DNA of 38,526 nt from a virus. The stretch covers positions 1-38,526 of IMG/VR virus record IMGVR_UViG_3300017671_000006; one strand, written 5' to 3'. The notes under the pieces are model-generated. The model did no database searches and was not told the DNA's origin. It worked only from the letters and a program-made list of their open reading frames with translations. This document shows positions 6,703 to 37,917 of this stretch, piece by piece. Each line of letters begins with the position of its first letter. Position 1 is the first letter of the stretch. The translations under genes were made by a program, and so were the position numbers.

Positions 6703-7948
6703 TGCCAGCTCCTGCGCCTGGCCGCGCGGCCGAGAGCACCTTCAGCGTCACGCCGCCCGGTACGAAGCCGGGATGGCGGACCCGGTTGCGGGCAGCGATA
6801 TCGGCTGCGCGCGCCTCGACGCCGCCTGACGCTGGGCCGACGCCATAGAGCCGATTGGCAACGCGCAGCGCAGGCTGTGTCGCGCCGATCGGCAGGTCGT
6901 GCACGCGCGCCAGGGTGCCGCCGCGCTGTGTGATGTCACGCACCGCCGCGCGGCGCAGACCGTCAAACAAAGCCGCGCGATCGTCGTTGCCGGCGTCGGC
7001 CGCGCGCATCGCCAGCAGATCGAGGCGAGCGCTTACGCGGTCACGCATGGCAGTCGCATCCTCATAGCTGGCAAACGACGTGCGGCTGGCGGCACGCACC
7101 AGCTCGGCAGCTGCTGCCGAGGTATAGAGGTGGACGAAGGCAGCCTGGTTGTCCGCCTGGCGCTGGCGTGATGGCGTGGTGCCGATCACCGGCTTGAGGC
7201 TGTCACCAAAGGCCGTCATCCGCATAAAGCTCTCGACGCGCACCCGGCCGTTGCTGCCGAGCGCCTGCACGGTGCTGACCAGGCCGACCACCGCCTGGCC
7301 GAGCCGCAGGGGCTCGCGCAGCAGCGACTGGATGTTGTCGGGCAGGAATCGCAGGCCAGCATCGAAGGCGCGTAAGGCCGGCCCAAGCCCGCCCTGGGCG
7401 GCAGCGACGAACTGGGTGAGCGTTGCAGCGCCAGTGACGAGATCGGCTGCAGCATCGCTGACAAAATCAGCCACATTGCCGATGTCAAAGCCATTGTCGA
7501 AAGCGCCGGCTGCGCCTGCGAGCACGTCGTCGGCTTCCGATCCAGCCAGCGCAGCACCGTCCAGTGCGGCCGACACAGCTACGGCCACACCCGATTCGAC
7601 GAACTCGATCGAGAAGCGGCACATTCCGCCCTCCTCGGTGTCCTCGGTCTGGCGATAGCTGAGCACGTTGACGTTCATCGATCCGTAGAACGGATGCACC
7701 AGCAGACCGGGGCCAAAAGCCTCCAGTGCGTCGATCAACGCGTCGCGACCGCCACGGTAATCGATGCCGGTGATCCAGCAGTCGATCGAGAAGGCGCGAG
7801 ACGACCGGCCAAGGTCCTCGGTTACCGGATCATCACGTCCGGGGAACTCATGGGTGACAACGCGCCTGCCGCCTGTCCGCTCGTGATACTCGGTGCGGAA
7901 GGCTGCACCGCGGAAGCTGCCGGGCTGGTATTGATCGCGCCAGGTCAT
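6692..7948 (-). CDS. Mu gpN-like tail/DNA circulation protein
   Basis: 418 residues. The N-terminal domain (MTWRDQYQPGSFRGAAFRTE ... GRRVVTHEFPGRDDPVTEDLGR) is the conserved DNA-circularisation N-terminus of Mu gpN, a baseplate hub partner despite its historical name. The remaining two thirds are helical and alanine-rich. ATGA overlap with the tape measure gene upstream; the order tape measure, N, P matches Mu. Confidence 0.9.
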   Translation of the reverse strand: MTWRDQYQPGSFRGAAFRTEYHERTGGRRVVTHEFPGRDDPVTEDLGRSSRAFSIDCWITGIDYRGGRDALIDALEAFGPGLLVHPFYGSMNVNVLSYRQTEDTEEGGMCRFSIEFVESGVAVAVSAALDGAALAGSEADDVLAGAAGAFDNGFDIGNVADFVSDAAADLVTGAATLTQFVAAAQGGLGPALRAFDAGLRFLPDNIQSLLREPLRLGQAVVGLVSTVQALGSNGRVRVESFMRMTAFGDSLKPVIGTTPSRQRQADNQAAFVHLYTSAAAAELVRAASRTSFASYEDATAMRDRVSARLDLLAMRAADAGNDDRAALFDGLRRAAVRDITQRGGTLARVHDLPIGATQPALRVANRLYGVGPASGGVEARAADIAARNRVRHPGFVPGGVTLKVLSAARPGAGAGNGG

Positions 7949-9465
7949 GCCGGCACCCAGTTGCTGCGCGCGATCTGGATCGACCAGGGGACGTCGCCCT
8001 TCTTGTTGAACTCGGTCAGCCGCGCGTTGCCCTGGCCGCGAACGTCGATGACGAGCTTGGCCTGGCCACCGACCTGCACCTTGTCGGCCTGCGCCTGTGG
8101 CCTCGGCAGCGCCGGGCGCACACTTCCAGGGCGACCCATCTTGTCAAGCCAGCCTCCAGCCTTCGGCCTTGCGGCCGGGGCCAGCGTTGCACGACCACGG
8201 CCCTGCCGACGATCAAGCTCGGCCAGGCCACGCTGGGCACCGGCGCGGTCCTGCTCGGATGTGAACCAACCGTCGCGGATGTTCTCCAGCTGCTTGCGCT
8301 GGACGTCTTCCTGCCACCTTGACCATGCGCCGGCCGCACGGCCGATCAGGCTGATGATCTGGCCCAGCACGCCGACGATCGTAAGCATGCCATCGGCCAC
8401 AGCCTGCCAGTCCGTCTCGGTGGTAAAGCGCCAGGCCCAGTCGAAGGCACGCTCAAGCTTATCGCCGATCCGCTGCGCCCAGGCATCGAGGCGACCATCG
8501 GACGCCATCTCGTTGACCCTGGCGAGGATTGTTTCGATGCGACCCTTGACCTTGTCGAACACGCCCGCCTCGGCGACACGATTGAGGAAGCCGGTCCATT
8601 GGTCCTTCAGGTTGCTGATCATGCCGAAGAACGTCTTGCTCTGGCGGTCCATCATCCCGTCGAACCGGGCGCTCATGATGGTGACGATCGCGTCCTTCAG
8701 GTCGGCTGCGTTCTTCTTGGCCTGGAGCGATATCTCCTTGCCATTTTTCATGTAGGTCAGGGTGACCTTGTCGCCCTCGGTGCGGGCGCGGATGCCGAAT
8801 TCCTTCAGGCGTTCGAACTCTCCGGTCTGGGCGTCAGCGAGCGCCTCGACGGCTGCCATGATATCCTTCGACATGCCGGCAGATGCATCGCCCAGGGCGC
8901 GCAGCGATCCATCGGTGGGATCGATGCCATAGGCCTTAAGCTGGACGAACGCGGCCATCACCTGGTCGAGCTCGTAGGGCGTGGTCTGGGCAAACTTACG
9001 CACCCAGTCCATCGACTTCCGGGCCTTCTGGGAAGAGCCCTCCATGTTTTCGAGCATGATCTCGAACTGTTCGAACTGCCCTGCGGTCTTGAACATGTCG
9101 AAGATGGCGAAGCCGCCCGCGCCGACGGCGGCCGTGCCGGCGATCTTGCCTAGCCCAAGGGCCAGCCCGCCAATCTTGCTGATCAGGCGACCCGCCGCAT
9201 AGCCAGCCTTGTCGCTGGCCTTGCCCAGGAGATCGAGGCCATTTGGCCCTCCCGCACGGTTGGCCGCGACGAGCACGCCCAGCAGCTTGTTGCGCAGCGC
9301 CTGCGCCTTGCCGCCAAACCGGTCCATCCGGCCACCGGCACGATCGACCTTCCGCGCCGCGCGCTCCACGCCTTCGCCCATGCGCTGCACCCGTTCCTGG
9401 ACACGCCGCACAGGCGCGCTGATCCGGTCGACGGCTTGCAGCAGAAGAGAAAGCTTGAGCGCCAT
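7945..9465 (-). CDS. Tail tape measure protein (Mu gp42-like)
   Basis: 506 residues, which is short for a tape measure and predicts a short contractile tail. Residues 1-60 are rich in basic residues with coiled-coil spacing. 76-115 holds a Gly/Ala-rich hydrophobic stretch (IGGLALGLGKIAGTAAVGAGGFAIF). The conserved tape-measure helix around 140-190 (WVRKFAQTTPYELDQVMAAFVQL) follows. A second hydrophobic stretch lies near 345-362. It starts 3 nt after the stop of the frameshifted chaperone, as expected for the gene following a G/GT-type pair. Confidence 0.9.
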   Translation of the reverse strand: MALKLSLLLQAVDRISAPVRRVQERVQRMGEGVERAARKVDRAGGRMDRFGGKAQALRNKLLGVLVAANRAGGPNGLDLLGKASDKAGYAAGRLISKIGGLALGLGKIAGTAAVGAGGFAIFDMFKTAGQFEQFEIMLENMEGSSQKARKSMDWVRKFAQTTPYELDQVMAAFVQLKAYGIDPTDGSLRALGDASAGMSKDIMAAVEALADAQTGEFERLKEFGIRARTEGDKVTLTYMKNGKEISLQAKKNAADLKDAIVTIMSARFDGMMDRQSKTFFGMISNLKDQWTGFLNRVAEAGVFDKVKGRIETILARVNEMASDGRLDAWAQRIGDKLERAFDWAWRFTTETDWQAVADGMLTIVGVLGQIISLIGRAAGAWSRWQEDVQRKQLENIRDGWFTSEQDRAGAQRGLAELDRRQGRGRATLAPAARPKAGGWLDKMGRPGSVRPALPRPQAQADKVQVGGQAKLVIDVRGQGNARLTEFNKKGDVPWSIQIARSNWVPA

Positions 9466-9468
9466 GCG

Positions 9469-9884
9469 TCAGGTGTCCTGGCCGTGGATGCGGATCGCCT
9501 GGGCGACCCAGAACTCGATGTCGTCGATCTCCATCGCCATCAGCTCAGAGGGCTGAAAGCGGAAGAGCTGGGCTAGGTCGCCTAGCCGGTCGCGCCAGTC
9601 AGCGGGCCATCGTCCAAAAAATCGCCGACCATGTCATAAAGGATCATCAAATCCTCAGCGTCGATGCGGTCGATCACGTCTTCGTCATGGCCGCTCAGAG
9701 CTGCGATCATTGCATGAAGCATGTGCACGCGGCGACCTGGATAGAGATCGACAAGCTTCATCTCCTTGCCGGTGGGGCGGCGCAGGGTGATCTCGGCGAT
9801 CGCTTCATCACGGATCGAGCCGTCTGCCTGACGAAACTGCCGGGTGACGGGATACTTGAGCGTATGCCTGGGCTGCATGGCCAT
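9469..9884 (-). CDS. Tail assembly chaperone fusion made by -1 frameshifting
   Basis: Predicted 138-residue product. The first 90 codons of the chaperone gene are followed by slippage at T TTT TTG (9621-9615) into the -1 frame, which then runs to TGA at 9471-9469. The added 48 residues include DLAQLFRFQPSELMAMEIDD followed by IEFWVAQA. This fits the GpE-type pattern DLAxxFxWxPxxLxxMxLxxLxxW found in P2 E+E' products. Such longer chaperones bind the tape measure protein, while the short form binds tube subunits. The fusion stop falls 3 nt before the tape measure ATG. The slippery heptamer is the one used in P2. Confidence 0.85.
9582..9884 (-). CDS. Tail assembly chaperone, short form (Mu gp41 / P2 gpE-like)
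   Basis: 100 residues from the ATG at 9884, which overlaps the tube gene stop (TGATG); the open frame extends upstream only as a shadow of the tube gene. Family features are a TLKYPVTRQFRQADGSIRDE-like beta start, then EITLRRPTGKEMKLVD and an acidic end (SGHDEDVIDRIDAEDLMIL). It acts in the cytoplasm during tail assembly and is not expected in the finished virion. The zero-frame ends 14 codons from the start of the slippery codons. Confidence 0.88.
   Translation of the reverse strand: MAMQPRHTLKYPVTRQFRQADGSIRDEAIAEITLRRPTGKEMKLVDLYPGRRVHMLHAMIAALSGHDEDVIDRIDAEDLMILYDMVGDFLDDGPLTGATG
9615..9621 (-). promoter_or_regulatory. Programmed -1 frameshift slippery heptamer
   Basis: Read on the minus strand as T TTT TTG in the chaperone frame (GAT TTT TTG). 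Both frames are open across it. Downstream, GGCTAG (9587-9582) can pair with CTAGCC (9576-9571) around a 5-nt loop, a perfect 6-bp hairpin that includes the zero-frame stop. It begins 27 nt past the heptamer, further away than most stimulators, so its role is uncertain. Confidence 0.82.
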
Positions 9885-10252
9885 CAGAGCAGCTCCTCGG
9901 CAGGCGGGCCCATCATCACCACAGCGGCCTTGCCGTCGTTGCTGGTGAGCGTGGCGGCCTCGCTGACATACGCGTTGCGGATCACATAGGTGTGGCCGGT
10001 GTCCGTCTTGAACGAAACAGTCGCGTTGTCGATCGCCCGGATCTGGGCGAGCGAGCGGCCTTCCTTGACCAGCAGGCTGCAATTGAGCTGCGCCGGGCGT
10101 GGCGTCTCGTTGAAGCTGCCGGCGTCATAGTCGCCGATGACCGAATTGCGGGTGACGCCGCCGATGTCGAGGGTCGACTGGCCATCGGTGGGCCAGCGCT
10201 CGCCATCCACGGTGATGGTTGCCTGGCCGACGACCTTGTTGGGATTTGCCAT
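9884..10252 (-). CDS. Tail tube protein (Mu gpM family)
   Basis: 122 residues, normal for the family. ANPNKVVGQATITVDGERWP at the start and DIGGVTRNSVIGDYDAGSF near 35-53 are typical of Mu tube proteins, which stack as hexameric rings inside the sheath. The gene follows the sheath by a 42-bp gap that holds an AGGAGG ribosome-binding site, suited to a highly expressed structural protein. Confidence 0.9.
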   Translation of the reverse strand: MANPNKVVGQATITVDGERWPTDGQSTLDIGGVTRNSVIGDYDAGSFNETPRPAQLNCSLLVKEGRSLAQIRAIDNATVSFKTDTGHTYVIRNAYVSEAATLTSNDGKAAVVMMGPPAEELL

Positions 10253-23571: not shown

Positions 23572-25965
23572 TTACAGTCCGATCGGCGTCACAAGCAGCA
23601 GCTTGGCGGTGAGGTTGGCGCGGTGCCTGGTTGCCAAGCCGCTCGGATCGGCAAAGTCATGAAGCGCGAACGATTCTCCAGGCAGCCATGCCTGCTTGAC
23701 CGTCTTGCCCGCCTTGGGTCCGCTCGGGATGACGTTCTGCGACCAGCTGCTATAGTCCCACGTCTTGAGCAGCGGCACGCGCGTCAATCGCTGAAACAGC
23801 ATCTGCGCCTCGCAGACGTTGGGCTTCTCGTCGTACTGATCATAGCCATCCAGGATGAACGTGCTGCGGAAGCCGTCGCCGCCCTTTGCAACCCGCCACA
23901 GATCGAGCCGGAATCGCATTGCGCCGATGTAGTAGCCGCGATCGTTATAGGGGCGGGCGGTATGTCCTGCCGTGCCGCCTGGGCCGGGCACGACGAGCTG
24001 GCGGTCGCTCCAGCCGAAGTTGAAGGTACGGGCGTTCATCGCCGTGGTGGCGATCGCGCCGGGAAATGTTCCGAGAACCTTGTACGTCCCGGCCCCGCCG
24101 AACGTGCCCGTCAGCTGCTCCCCGATGAAAAGCCCTGTGCCGTTAAAGCTGGTGAACGCGGTGTTGGTGTGGATCTGCATCAGCCCCTGCAACGTGCCGA
24201 CCACATCAGTCACGGTAAGAACAGCATCAGCCGTGCTCGTGCCCGTAAGGGTGCCAGTGAACGTGACCCAGCCAGTCGGGATCACCGACTGCGGTTCGGC
24301 GTTGTGGGCATGGTTGCAGAGCATACGGTCGGCGGTGTCCATGAAGGGCACGATGCTGTTCTCGTAGCTGCAGGACTGCCAGAAAGCATACTCGTCATCG
24401 CTGATCGTGTCGGGCCGACCCGGAATCCTGTCACGCCAGAAGCTCGCCCAGTTGGTGCGGCGCTCTTCCAGCTCGGCGAGGGAGCAGCCGCCCAAGGCGC
24501 GCACGCTGGAATAAGGCAGGCCGGTCAGGCCAATGGTGTCAGCACCCTCGCGCAGATACCACAGGCCGTTGCACGGCGATGAACCGCCGATCCCACGATT
24601 GATGGGCGTGGCGCTAACCTTGGCAGCCACTTGCACCGGCACGCTGCCGGTAATTCCGCCGCCCTGGTAAAGACTGTCGCCGTCGAACAGCAGCGTCTGG
24701 CCTCTGAAGGGGTTCATGATGTCGAGTAGCGCCGACTGATCTCGGCCATAGTTCGCTTCAGGCGCGCCGGTGATCAGTATCCGCACGTTGCGATCGCCGA
24801 AGTTGGTGATGGCCACATGCTCGGCGCCCACCGGCGCGACACGGGGGCCGGGCAGAACAACCGTGCCGAGATTGTCCGGGGTGCCATCGAGCCCGATTTC
24901 TTGCACATCGAGCACTCGGGCAAACTGCTTGGTCGTCGGGTTGAAGCCCTGACCGAATACGATCGCAGCAGTGACAGACCCGTTCTTGACCAGGTTATAG
25001 GGCAGAAGTGTCTGCCCGCCGCGGATCGGAAACACCTGAAAGTTCCACACCGAGGCCAGATCGACGAATGCGCCATTGACGTTGTAATAGCCGAGCGCTG
25101 GGTCCCACGGATGTTCTACGGCGGGCTGGTTGGCCAGGATGCCGGCGATTTCGTCAGCACGATCATCGTCCAGCGAGAGCCTTTCGACGATCACGCCGCC
25201 CTTGCGCAGCTTGCCATCGACGACAGTATCGGCGGCCCGAGCGGTGCCGCGCATGGTGACAGCACCAGCAGGCCAGACCACCCGCAGCTTTTCGAAATAG
25301 GTAATTCCCGTGCCAGGGCCCAAGCCGATGGGATCACCCACGATCGCATTGCCGGCATCGAAGAAGGACGCCGCATTCAGGATGGGGCTATCCACCATCA
25401 GGGTGATCTCGAAAATCTGGCCGGCGACACCGTCATCAACTTCATAAGCCCGCCAAGCGTCACTGGCGTTAAGGCCGCTGCCGGTCGCAAAATAGAAACC
25501 GTTTGCGATCGTCGGATTGGCGTTGATGAATTGCCCCAGCGCCAACCTTGCTGGGAACAGCGACTGCACCTGGGCGACGCTGGCGGCAGCAGCATCGGCA
25601 GCATCTTCCGCCTGGTCGACCAGGGCTTGCACTTCGGCGCTGGCATCGGCCGACAGCTTCTCGAACTGCTCCCAGGTGCCGACGCCCGACGCGCCAACCT
25701 TGCGATACCAGCCATTGAGCGCCGGATCTGGATCGGCGAAGACGAGCCCGACGCTATTGGCGTCATAATCCAGCAGGCCCTGCAGGTCTTCTTCGGTCTC
25801 GGTCGCTTCCTCGGTCGAGATCAGACGACCAAGGAGCTGGCGGATTTCCAGCTTTTGCATTGGTCCACCGGGCTCCTGCACCGCGGTCAGCGCAGTGGGG
25901 CTGACCGCGGTTGCCGCAGGCAGCTGCTCGAAGGATCGGGTCTCAAGCTCGCTCATTTGGGGCAT
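23572..25965 (-). CDS. Large tail-fibre-like protein with SGNH-hydrolase domain
   Basis: 797 residues. N-terminal part: a short helical start, a LNGWYRKVG...GTWEQF virion-fibre motif near 84-101, and an Ala-rich coiled coil near 105-135. An SGNH/GDSL esterase-like core begins with block I LLFDGDSL (nucleophile Ser about 431) and block II NRGIGGSS (456-463). The block III and V residues are not clear. A Thr/Gly-rich beta insertion (TGTLTGTSTADAVLTVTD, about 570-640) splits the C-terminal half. Known SGNH fibres deacetylate surface polysaccharides. It is odd that it lies between spanins and holin, not in the tail module. The start could be 25965 (AAAGGA close upstream) or 25956 (ATGA overlap with Rz1). 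Confidence 0.78.
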   Translation of the reverse strand: MPQMSELETRSFEQLPAATAVSPTALTAVQEPGGPMQKLEIRQLLGRLISTEEATETEEDLQGLLDYDANSVGLVFADPDPALNGWYRKVGASGVGTWEQFEKLSADASAEVQALVDQAEDAADAAAASVAQVQSLFPARLALGQFINANPTIANGFYFATGSGLNASDAWRAYEVDDGVAGQIFEITLMVDSPILNAASFFDAGNAIVGDPIGLGPGTGITYFEKLRVVWPAGAVTMRGTARAADTVVDGKLRKGGVIVERLSLDDDRADEIAGILANQPAVEHPWDPALGYYNVNGAFVDLASVWNFQVFPIRGGQTLLPYNLVKNGSVTAAIVFGQGFNPTTKQFARVLDVQEIGLDGTPDNLGTVVLPGPRVAPVGAEHVAITNFGDRNVRILITGAPEANYGRDQSALLDIMNPFRGQTLLFDGDSLYQGGGITGSVPVQVAAKVSATPINRGIGGSSPCNGLWYLREGADTIGLTGLPYSSVRALGGCSLAELEERRTNWASFWRDRIPGRPDTISDDEYAFWQSCSYENSIVPFMDTADRMLCNHAHNAEPQSVIPTGWVTFTGTLTGTSTADAVLTVTDVVGTLQGLMQIHTNTAFTSFNGTGLFIGEQLTGTFGGAGTYKVLGTFPGAIATTAMNARTFNFGWSDRQLVVPGPGGTAGHTARPYNDRGYYIGAMRFRLDLWRVAKGGDGFRSTFILDGYDQYDEKPNVCEAQMLFQRLTRVPLLKTWDYSSWSQNVIPSGPKAGKTVKQAWLPGESFALHDFADPSGLATRHRANLTAKLLLVTPIGL

Positions 25966-30009: not shown

Positions 30010-31962
30010 TCAGTCGACCACCCGCAACCGCGTTTCGGCGGCAGCAAAGCGTTCCATGAAATTCGTATCGGGTGCGGCGCGGCGCGCTGGTTTCAGCGCT
30101 GCAGCGGTGCCGCGGTGGTGGACGGCGCGGATTACCTGCGGGTCGGGCAACTCCAGCTCGTCCTCGTAATCGGGGATCATCGCTGCCAGCTGCTCGGCAG
30201 TGAGCAGGTCCTCCATATCGGCGGCGGTACGAACCGCCTTGCGCCAATCCGATTCCTGACGCGCACGCTTCTTCGCGCTGGCGACATCGAGGAAGCCAGC
30301 GTCCTCCAGCAGATCGGCGCTGGTGAGATACGCGCCTGCCGTATCGTAGACATGCAGCGCCTGGTGCAGATCGTCGGGATCGAAGCGCACCGTCACCTTG
30401 CGGCCGTGGAGGTTCGACATCGATGGCGACCAGTACCGGTTGCCCATGAAGCGCAGCTCGCCAGTCTTGCGGTCGACGTTGATCTGCTCGGCGGCAAGCA
30501 GCGCCAAACGCATAACCTCGGGCGTGGCCTTGCCAATCGGTGCCTGGGCATAGCTTGCCGCGAACACTTGGTCGAAGCTCTGGCCATTGGCGGTTTCGGT
30601 GCGCCTGCCGGTCTTGGCGTTGTGCATGGCGATTCCGCGCGTGGCGATCGCGACGAACTCGGCGAAGGGCACGGCTTTGCTGGCGTAGTTCTCGGGCTTC
30701 GCATCGGGCTTGTTGCCGGTATAGGCACCGGCGAACGCGGGGTGCTTGGCAACGCTGTCGCAAAGGTCCCTGAAGCCACGCTCAATGGGCTTTGACTGGC
30801 CTCTGTAGGGTGTCGCCCAGTGGATCTGGATGCCGAGCGAGGTCAGCAGGCCGGTGGGCTCGTCTTCCTTGATCTTGAACCGGAAGCGGGTGACCGCGCC
30901 GCCCGTGATCCACTTCGAGGCGAAGGCGCGGCCGTTGTCGAGCAGGCAGTGCTTGGGGATGCCGAAGTCGCGGAACAGATCCGCGAACGCGAGCCGGGTT
31001 TGCACCGCGCTCTCGGTCTCACCGATGCGCCAGGCCAGTATCTTGCGGCTGTAAACGTCCTGGATCGCCACCATCATCGGGCGAATGATCCGGCCATCGT
31101 CGAGCGCCACGAACACGTCGAACTTGTGACCGTCGATGTTGACGATCTCCATTGCATGCAAGCCCGCGACGCTGCGCTTCTGGGCGGGCATCGAGCGGCG
31201 CAGGGCCTCTGCGCCTTCACGCCGGGCGATGATGACGCGGGGGTCGACTTCGCGCTCCAGGCGGCGCGCGAACGTCTTCTCGCACGGGATGGAGAGCGCC
31301 TGCGCGTCAGCGATATCCTTGGCCCGCGCATAGCAGCTCGACAGTGTCGGCTGTTCGGGCCGCAGGAAATCGCTCTTGAAATACTGCCAGATGGCGGCGT
31401 CGATCGGCGCGGCGCATCCGCCGCCACGGCGGCGCGGTGCCAAGCATGGCAGACGGTCATGCGCGGCGATGCCTTCGACCAGCTTCAGCCAGGCCCACAG
31501 GGTGGACTGGCCGGCGACGCCTTCCTGGGCGACGGCGCTGACCGCCATCGACCGGGTCAGGCCTGCGGCCTCATAGCGTTCGATGCGCTGCACCGCATCC
31601 AGTCGGCGCTCGGCCTCGGCGCGGGTCTTGGCGTTCTGCGCCTCGTACCAGCTCCACAGTTGCGACACGGCGATTCCTGCCGCGTCATCTGGCGAGTTGT
31701 GAACCTGGCCATCGATCGAGATGCCGCGGCGAACAAGCTCGGCGCGGGCGATCGCGGGCAGCACGCGGATCGAATACTCCAGACCGCCACCGCGACCGGC
31801 GCGCGGCCGCGCGAGCGGGGCACCGCGGCTATCTACCGCCAGCGCCCAGCGTTCTTCTGCGGCACGTTCGTTCACCTTGCGCTTGATGCGCGGCAGTCCG
31901 GGCAGCGCCAGGTCGGCGAGCTCGGCTGCGGTGAACCACGTCTTTGTGCCTGACTGGATCAA
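30010..31962 (-). CDS. MuA-like DDE transposase
   Basis: 650 residues (Mu A 663). N-terminal Mu-type winged helix (SGTKTWFTAAELADLALPGL ... ALAVDSRGAPLAR, about 4-52), helix-turn-helix end-binding domains (about 100-260), then the integrase core. Catalytic triad by position: D277 (VNIDGHKF), D342 (LLDNGRAF), E394 (KPIERGF), close to Mu D269/D336/E392. The C-terminal Mu_C barrel region (RFMGNRYWSPSM...VTVRFDPDDL) and a basic tail follow. Start is TTG at 31962, fixed by TTGA overlap with the preceding stop and GAGGGG upstream. The DDE core looks intact, so the element may still transpose. Confidence 0.95.
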   Translation of the reverse strand: MIQSGTKTWFTAAELADLALPGLPRIKRKVNERAAEERWALAVDSRGAPLARPRAGRGGGLEYSIRVLPAIARAELVRRGISIDGQVHNSPDDAAGIAVSQLWSWYEAQNAKTRAEAERRLDAVQRIERYEAAGLTRSMAVSAVAQEGVAGQSTLWAWLKLVEGIAAHDRLPCLAPRRRGGGCAAPIDAAIWQYFKSDFLRPEQPTLSSCYARAKDIADAQALSIPCEKTFARRLEREVDPRVIIARREGAEALRRSMPAQKRSVAGLHAMEIVNIDGHKFDVFVALDDGRIIRPMMVAIQDVYSRKILAWRIGETESAVQTRLAFADLFRDFGIPKHCLLDNGRAFASKWITGGAVTRFRFKIKEDEPTGLLTSLGIQIHWATPYRGQSKPIERGFRDLCDSVAKHPAFAGAYTGNKPDAKPENYASKAVPFAEFVAIATRGIAMHNAKTGRRTETANGQSFDQVFAASYAQAPIGKATPEVMRLALLAAEQINVDRKTGELRFMGNRYWSPSMSNLHGRKVTVRFDPDDLHQALHVYDTAGAYLTSADLLEDAGFLDVASAKKRARQESDWRKAVRTAADMEDLLTAEQLAAMIPDYEDELELPDPQVIRAVHHRGTAAALKPARRAAPDTNFMERFAAAETRLRVVD

Positions 31963-37260: not shown

Positions 37261-37917
37261 GCGGCTTTCAATCGTGAGGCGATGGCGCAACGCGTGCGCA
37301 AGCTGGCTCTGAAAAAGAGCCTGACTGCCGCCGATCTCGGCAGAGCGCTGGAGATCAAGAAGTCGGCAGCTTCAAATTATTGGAACGGGCTTCGGGACTG
37401 GCCGACCGATCGGCTGGTGCCTCTCGCTGATCTGCTTGAGGTGAATCCACGCTGGCTCCTGTCCGGCGATGGCGATGCCGTCGCTAGTGATGCAGCCGCA
37501 CCAGAAGGATCGGTTATGGTCCAGGAAATCGATCTCGCTTATGGGATGGGGAGCACATATCTCGATGTCGCCGGCGTTGAGCCGAAGGCCATTCCCTTCC
37601 CAAGCGCGTGGCTTCGCACTTTCACCAACGCCGATGCCGAGCATCTGTTTTTTGCCAGGGGCGATGGCGACTCGATGATGCCGACAATCCTCGACCAGGA
37701 CATTGTGCTGATCGACCGCAGCCAGATTGCGATCAATAGACAGGACCGGATCTGGGCACTCGCCTATGGCGAGCTGGGGATGATCAAGCGGGTGCGCGCG
37801 ATGCCCGATGGCAGCTATCAGCTGCTGAGCGACAATCCCAATGTGGAACCGGCGACCGCAGTTGACGGCGAAATGTCTGTTATCGGCAGGGTCGTCGCTG
37901 TGATAAGACGGACCTGA
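37249..37917 (+). CDS. Lysogeny repressor, helix-turn-helix plus S24 (LexA-like) domain
   Basis: 222 residues from the GTG at 37249. N-terminal helix-turn-helix (LALKKSLTAADLGRALEIKK, SAASNYWNGLRDWPTDRLVP); C-terminal S24 fold with the nucleophile Ser in GDGDSMMPT and the base Lys in GMIKRV, then YQLLSDNPNVEP. Such repressors keep the early operon silent and can self-cleave after DNA damage, which would give an inducible prophage. Mu's own repressor is not S24-type, so this resembles lambda-type control. Start is uncertain: GTG 37249 (GAGG 8 nt upstream), ATG 37195 (would span the operator) or ATG 37282. Confidence 0.88.
   Translation: MESQAAFNREAMAQRVRKLALKKSLTAADLGRALEIKKSAASNYWNGLRDWPTDRLVPLADLLEVNPRWLLSGDGDAVASDAAAPEGSVMVQEIDLAYGMGSTYLDVAGVEPKAIPFPSAWLRTFTNADAEHLFFARGDGDSMMPTILDQDIVLIDRSQIAINRQDRIWALAYGELGMIKRVRAMPDGSYQLLSDNPNVEPATAVDGEMSVIGRVVAVIRRT

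Follow-up and report, generated by a model that had tools for sequence, protein, structure and literature searches.

A gene between the tail tube and tape measure genes of a virus raises the question of whether it yields a single tail assembly chaperone or also a longer product, made by ribosomes that change frame near its end. An initial annotation of this DNA proposed such a -1 frameshift at a slippery heptamer of the phage P2 type, and we examine here how far the locus and its relatives bear this out. The window, meaning the whole stretch of DNA analysed, is one virus record of 38,526 bases.

Genome context

The tail genes at the chaperone site lie on the minus strand, and Pfam and PHROG matches give the order of transcription as a Mu gp37-like gene, tail sheath, tail tube, chaperone, tape measure, a DNA-circularisation/gpN-like gene, and a gpP-like baseplate hub. 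The window encodes a MuA-type transposase (30010–31962) together with Mu-type portal, gpT head protein, protease I, and gpF genes, and the gene content is therefore that of a transposable Mu-like phage whose tail is contractile. The nearest relative found is a locus (L009) in Blastomonas natatoria DSM 3183, with a tail tube protein 97% identical to that of the window, and since it sits in this bacterium the host of the window phage is likely a Sphingomonas-type bacterium. We also note a 797-codon open frame on the minus strand (23572–25965) without a Pfam match at E<=0.001.

The tail tube gene (Mu gpM-like; 9884–10252, minus strand; PF10618 Tail_tube, 103.6 bits) ends with a TGA whose last base is the first base of the chaperone start, and the tape measure gene (7945–9465, minus strand) encodes a protein of 506 aa (PF20155 TMP_3, 64.6 bits; phrog_973). 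The chaperone and the -1 frame overlapping its end are placed between these two genes, as in tail-chaperone frameshift genes.

Anatomy of the chaperone gene and its overlapping frame

The zero-frame chaperone gene (gpE / Mu gp41-like; 9582–9884, minus strand) runs from an ATG at 9884 to a TAG at 9584–9582 and encodes 100 aa. Its product matches PF10109 Phage_TAC_7 (E, or 41 or 14) with 26.8 bits against a gathering threshold of 25, as well as the tail protein family phrog_166. An AlphaFold2 model has a confident fold (pLDDT 84), and its top viral structural match is the 'Tape measure chaperone' of Burkholderia phage Mica (Foldseek E 7e-4); against the PDB the best Foldseek E is 0.42, and solved structures gave a useful sequence match for neither the chaperone nor the GpE-like profile.

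A -1 shift can join the two frames only between 9633 and 9582 on the minus strand, that is, from just past the last -1 stop (9636–9634) to the zero-frame stop, and this stretch contains the heptamer T TTT TTG (9615–9621, minus strand). The heptamer is in zero-frame phase, read as the codons GAT (9623–9621), TTT (9620–9618), and TTG (9617–9615). The -1 extension (9469–9614, minus strand), counted from GGA (9615–9613), reads GRWPADWRDRLGDLAQLFRFQPSELMAMEIDDIEFWVAQAIRIHGQDT, a run of 48 codons from 9615 down to 9472, and ends with a TGA at 9471–9469; a CGC spacer then leaves a 3-nt gap before the tape measure ATG at 9465. The predicted fusion has 90+48 = 138 aa. The phase of the heptamer, the 48 further codons, and the 3-nt distance to the tape measure gene thus all agree with the initial annotation, which had left the strand unstated (it is minus).

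The same annotation described the -1 product as GpE-like, and profile matches point the same way. The extension scores 22.1 bits with PF06528 Phage_P2_GpE, slightly below the cut-off of 23 (E 1e-4), and 19 of 32 homologues match this family at E<=0.01.

Chance expectation in the window

At 65% GC a long open -1 frame is no evidence by itself; comparison with relatives is what counts. If bases are independent, 48 codons would stay open with a probability of about 0.29; of the 354 window ORFs of at least 60 codons, 238 continue in -1 for 38 codons or more beyond the stop. The open frame being uninformative alone, relatives were tested, as described below. The in-phase heptamer in the chaperone gene, unlike the open frame, is beyond chance. 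Across 19 window genes, in-phase X XXY YYZ occurs at four of 6506 codon positions, and none of the four is TTTTTTG. Irrespective of phase, TTTTTTG is present in two copies against 0.9 expected on both strands; the other copy lies at 37648–37654 on the plus strand, and a count of two is at chance level.

Conservation of the -1 relation

A viral scan with the chaperone sequence alone found zero relatives; the tail tube was used as query instead, and loci were gathered by tail tube similarity and from annotated phages. Profiles of the zero-frame chaperone and of the GpE-like domain were then run, stop to stop and in three frames, over 113 stretches including the window. Both domains are recognised at E<1e-3 in 85 of these (the window among them), and all 85 place the GpE domain in -1 relative to the chaperone, with none in frame 0 or +1/-2; this count follows the dropping of 28 of the 113 stretches. 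Some of the same loci, each with the -1 arrangement, also served to build the profiles, and 53 of the 85 are absent from the GpE profile. The GpE frame overlaps the chaperone by at least 46 nt in all 85. By inspection, eight of the dropped stretches look -1 (L053, L058, L114, L130, L131, L132, L135, L137) and twelve look -2 (L052, L054, L065, L126, L128, L129, L133, L141, L143, L144, L159, L161); the other eight have no frame class (L057, L059, L062, L063, L064, L066, L163, L165).

Dual coding is visible when the window is compared with L009: differences are found at seven of 51 positions in the overlap, at 92 of 249 positions coding in the zero frame only, and at 27 of 111 coding in the -1 frame only. 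A functionless overlap, open by chance or left by decay, is suggested by how common long -1 frames are at this GC content, but the conserved W motif, the PF06528 matches, and the fixed -1 relation in relatives leave this reading with almost no probability.

The -1 frame might also be a separate gene with its own start codon, requiring no frameshift, and the downstream frame is indeed annotated as its own CDS in Chromohalobacter phage YPCBV-1 and as D108 41.5. Such a gene would need a start, yet in the -1 frame of the window ATG, GTG, and TTG are all absent between the last -1 stop and the conserved W motif, and in 64 of 73 dereplicated loci the 75 nt preceding the motif contain none of these codons in that frame. 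A separate gene also leaves the slippery heptamers and the codon bias described below unexplained, and we regard it as highly improbable.

Slip sites occupy two slots

Dereplication at 90% left 73 loci, in which site positions are given relative to the second W codon in the conserved WPxDW motif (mostly ACT GG in the zero frame). A strict in-phase X XXY YYZ heptamer lies between -54 and -15 in 51 of the 73, where 1.6 would be expected at the rate seen in their tube and tape measure genes (64 sites in 41,556 positions); in-phase T TTT TTG is found at none of these background positions.

The sites fall mostly into two slots. In the T slot, mostly at -24/-27, in-phase T TTT is present in 35 of the 73 loci; it is part of T TTT TTG in 18 of them, and in the remainder it stands within T TTT TTT, T TTT TTC, or G GGT TTT or as bare T TTT. 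The G slot, at exactly -42, is occupied in 24 loci (10 G GGA AAC, 2 G GGA AAG, 11 G GGG GAG, and 1 G GGG GAA). Sites in both slots occur together in none of the 73 loci (Fisher P 9e-10). C CCT TTG is found in five loci, some of which also count in other classes, and other strict heptamers are present in L024, L113, and L139. The 22 loci lacking a strict heptamer comprise 11 whose G-slot site is G GGG GAG or G GGG GAA, four with bare T TTT, five with T TTC only, and two with none; in these last two (L092 and L155) no recognised site was found in the slots, and L155 has G GGG GAG immediately 5' of the zero-frame stop.

Codon-level selection for the slippery sequence at these fixed places is strong. 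Phe-Leu is encoded as TTT TTG in 18 of 21 cases at the T slot and in two of 91 cases in the tube and tape measure genes (Fisher P 8e-16).

The initial annotation had suggested conservation of the heptamer in relatives as a check, and counted its loss from loci that keep both frames as grounds for rejection. The window shares T TTT TTG with its three closest relatives (L009, L022, and L023). Across the wider family it is present in 18 of 73 loci though both frames are kept, so the ground for rejection, taken literally, applies there; apart from two of the 73, loci lacking T TTT TTG show a different candidate slip site, which mostly lies in one or other slot.

The variety of sites also bears on slippage by RNA polymerase, which could stutter on the T6 run and make mRNAs of altered length. 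T6 is a homopolymer, and homopolymer runs can cause transcriptional slippage, but the runs cited for bacteria are about 8–9 or longer (PMC3711429, PMC5009743). In many relatives no long run exists, the in-phase sequence being G GGA AAC, C CCT TTG, or G GGT TTT, and a transcriptional mechanism would make the zero-frame phasing of the heptamers needless. Polymerase slippage is thus about as improbable as a separate gene.

A probable programmed -1 frameshift

We put at about 0.94 the probability that a programmed -1 frameshift at T TTT TTG gives rise to both a 100-aa chaperone and a 138-aa GpE'-like fusion, a reading supported by the -1 relation in 85 of 85 stretches, the excess of heptamers, and the same site in P2. 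The anatomy of the frames, the kinship of both parts with P2 E/E', the -1 relation kept in relatives, and the codon-level selection at fixed places are observed directly; from them we infer that slippage occurs, how often, by which tRNA movements, and to what end in building the tail. Most ribosomes would continue in the zero frame and make the chaperone. A minority would reach UUU UUG with tRNA-Phe and tRNA-Leu in the P and A sites, respectively, and would slip back one base onto UUU UUU, so that the fusion with its C-terminal GpE'-like domain is made. By analogy with lambda gpG/gpGT, the short form would coat the tape measure protein, the fusion would recruit tail tube subunits, and the ratio of the two would matter for tail assembly.

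Comparison with P2, Mu, and lambda

Phage P2 was used as a positive control for the same method. Its record gives E+E' as a CDS joined across a -1 shift, and the method finds a single in-phase heptamer in P2 E, T TTT TTG in GGT TTT TTG, 25 nt before the stop, giving a fusion of 85+57 = 142 residues; the P2 E and E+E' products are reported as 91 and 142 aa (PMC3091744). P2 E' in the -1 frame scores 35 bits with the GpE profile built here. P2 and the window share T TTT TTG at an equivalent C-terminal Phe-Leu of the zero frame (GGT TTT TTG in P2, GAT TTT TTG in the window), and their chaperone and GpE' domains are related by profile (91/142 aa in P2, 100/138 aa in the window). Unlike in P2, the genes around the window pair form a Mu-type head-tail module, and a MuA-type transposase is encoded as well. 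The description of the site as P2-type therefore holds for the heptamer and both domains but not for the phage, which is Mu-like, while Mu and its close kin use a -2 shift at C GGG GGC G. Among 14 annotated phage records inspected, only that of P2 has the joined CDS, which fits the expectation that automatic annotation misses the fusion.

The likeness to Mu gp41 is one of gene order (sheath, tube, chaperone, overlapping frame, and tape measure) and of Mu-like structural and transposase genes. Mu, D108, SfMu, and ten other loci have a +1/-2 frame behind C GGG GGC G, whereas the window, with a -1 frame behind T TTT TTG, falls outside the Mu gp41-type -2 arrangement. The -2 shift of Mu is described as an exception, with -1 sites in some Mu-like phages, and in the transposable Mu-like Pseudomonas phages of the PaMx73 / D3112 group a -1 site, T TTT TTC, has been proposed (PMC4378225); a -1 shift in a Mu-like phage is thus already in print and not new. 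The PaMx73 / D3112 phages differ in having a siphophage tail, where the window phage has a contractile tail module.

The likeness to lambda is one of mechanism. The lambda slip site is G GGA AAG, and G GGA AAC or G GGA AAG is present in some relatives of the window phage. In lambda gpG/gpGT, too, a low-level -1 shift in the chaperone gene gives two products acting on the tape measure protein; in the lambda model the ratio is 30:1, with the tape measure protein bound by the G part and the tail subunit by the T part, and in P2 and its relatives the shift is reported to be two to three times as frequent (PMC5009743).

Possible stimulators

The initial annotation also pointed to a perfect 6-bp hairpin overlapping the zero-frame stop. 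A perfect inverted repeat does overlap the TAG at 9584–9582, but its stem is 7 bp rather than 6, with a 3-nt loop (9571–9587, minus strand; GGCTAGG at 9587–9581, CGA, and CCTAGCC at 9577–9571). If this hairpin were the stimulatory element driving the shift, its perfect stem and -10.4 kcal/mol as an isolated element would count in its favour. It starts 27 nt downstream of the heptamer, however, and the stem is broken in L009, L022, and L023 (-3.6 to -5.8 kcal/mol), while the downstream fold of the window is no better than shuffles (z-scores +0.22 and -1.09); in P2 and P2-like Burkholderia phages such a hairpin is reported as absent (PMC3091744). Being unconserved, 27 nt downstream, and in a region that folds no better than shuffled sequence, it should not be counted as a stimulator, a role that we consider very unlikely. 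Its distance from the heptamer and its loss in the closest relatives suggest that it is probably incidental and irrelevant to the shift.

A Shine-Dalgarno-like stimulator upstream of the heptamer is absent from the window (-2.2 kcal/mol, compared with a mean of -2.4 in synonymous shuffles), and across the family the tendency is weak (mean -5.3 vs -3.9 kcal/mol in synonymous shuffles for 65 loci, two of the 65 individually below 0.05). The window thus has neither the stable conserved downstream structure nor the upstream Shine-Dalgarno-like element of a dnaX-like stimulated cassette, and Rfam gives no matches in 9400–9900. With no above-chance downstream structure and no such upstream element, the efficiency of the frameshift could be low.

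Turnover of site, slot, and direction

The 11 loci with G GGG GAG at -42 are L010, L013, L019, L020, L025, L027, L036, L068, L082, L088, and L094. This sequence stands at the same place as G GGA AAC or G GGA AAG in sister loci and is a candidate non-classical slip site, a function suggested by its place and recurrence. Its exchange for G GGA AAC/AAG in the G slot points to a functional five-G site, at which peptidyl-tRNA-Gly may slip. Evidence for slippage of peptidyl-tRNA alone is described in a review (PMC5009743), and PRFect proposes the related five-G motif GGGGGAA from annotated SEA-PHAGES genomes (PMC10885494).

On the 73-row tail tube protein tree, which has few columns and is weakly resolved, the G slot needs three changes, two of them forced by starred branches. 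G GGG GAG and G GGA AAC/AAG are intermixed on it (e.g. L012 with L068 and L043 with L020), and L101 and L104 have zero-length branches and different slip sites (C CCT TTG vs T TTC), a contrast that suggests either recombination between tube and chaperone or fast turnover. Such recombination could also mimic slot turnover.

The Mu -2 site extends, by sequence, to other phages. In 13 of 13 listed Mu-type loci C GGG GGC G occurs in phase, once per locus and 11–35 nt ahead of the chaperone stop, and the ORF that follows is in -2 (+1); these are Mu, D108, SfMu, Pasteurella phage Pmp9, Alteromonadaceae phage B23, Shewanella phage MuM16-2, and seven IMG/VR loci, and L065 is a fourteenth -2 locus. The loci with the in-phase site are L169 (Mu), L052, L175, L054, L170, L171, and L126, together with L128, L133, L141, L143, L144, L159, and L065. 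The C-terminal domains of -2 and -1 loci are probably homologous (hhalign probability 61%, E 8e-5, in one comparison); the match between their chaperone parts is weak (6.6%). On an 89-row tube tree made by a quick method the direction label needs seven changes, two forced by starred branches. L132 reads CGG GGG GAA TGA with the domain in -1 and is positioned among the -2 loci L133, L141, L143, and L144; this is possibly a -2 to -1 switch or, as the locus is a single metagenome contig, a sequence error.

Burkholderia phage KS10 (L168) is reported to have no frameshift (PMC2628397). In its gp39 the +1/-2 frame runs past the stop and scores a weak 2–3 bits with either profile, and a homopolymer run of five, sought in the gene, was not found.

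On balance we favour the view that the shift signal of Mu-like tail modules is swappable: the site would occupy one of two fixed slots (about -24/-27 or -42, never both) and would have switched between them more than once while both proteins were kept, with a five-G site among its forms and a change of direction as well. Titles and the starts of abstracts, with few subscription journals covered, yielded no description of slot switching of the slip site in Mu-like phages.

Implications

The site in the window is one more example of a textbook case, and for this phage it gives a probable annotation with two products. What is of interest is the comparative pattern across relatives rather than a slip site of known type. 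These relatives form a natural series in which the architecture of the products is fixed and the slip sequence, its place, and even the direction of the shift vary; because of this, the series can reveal which slip sequences bacterial ribosomes accept, including non-classical ones such as G GGG GAG and T TTC.
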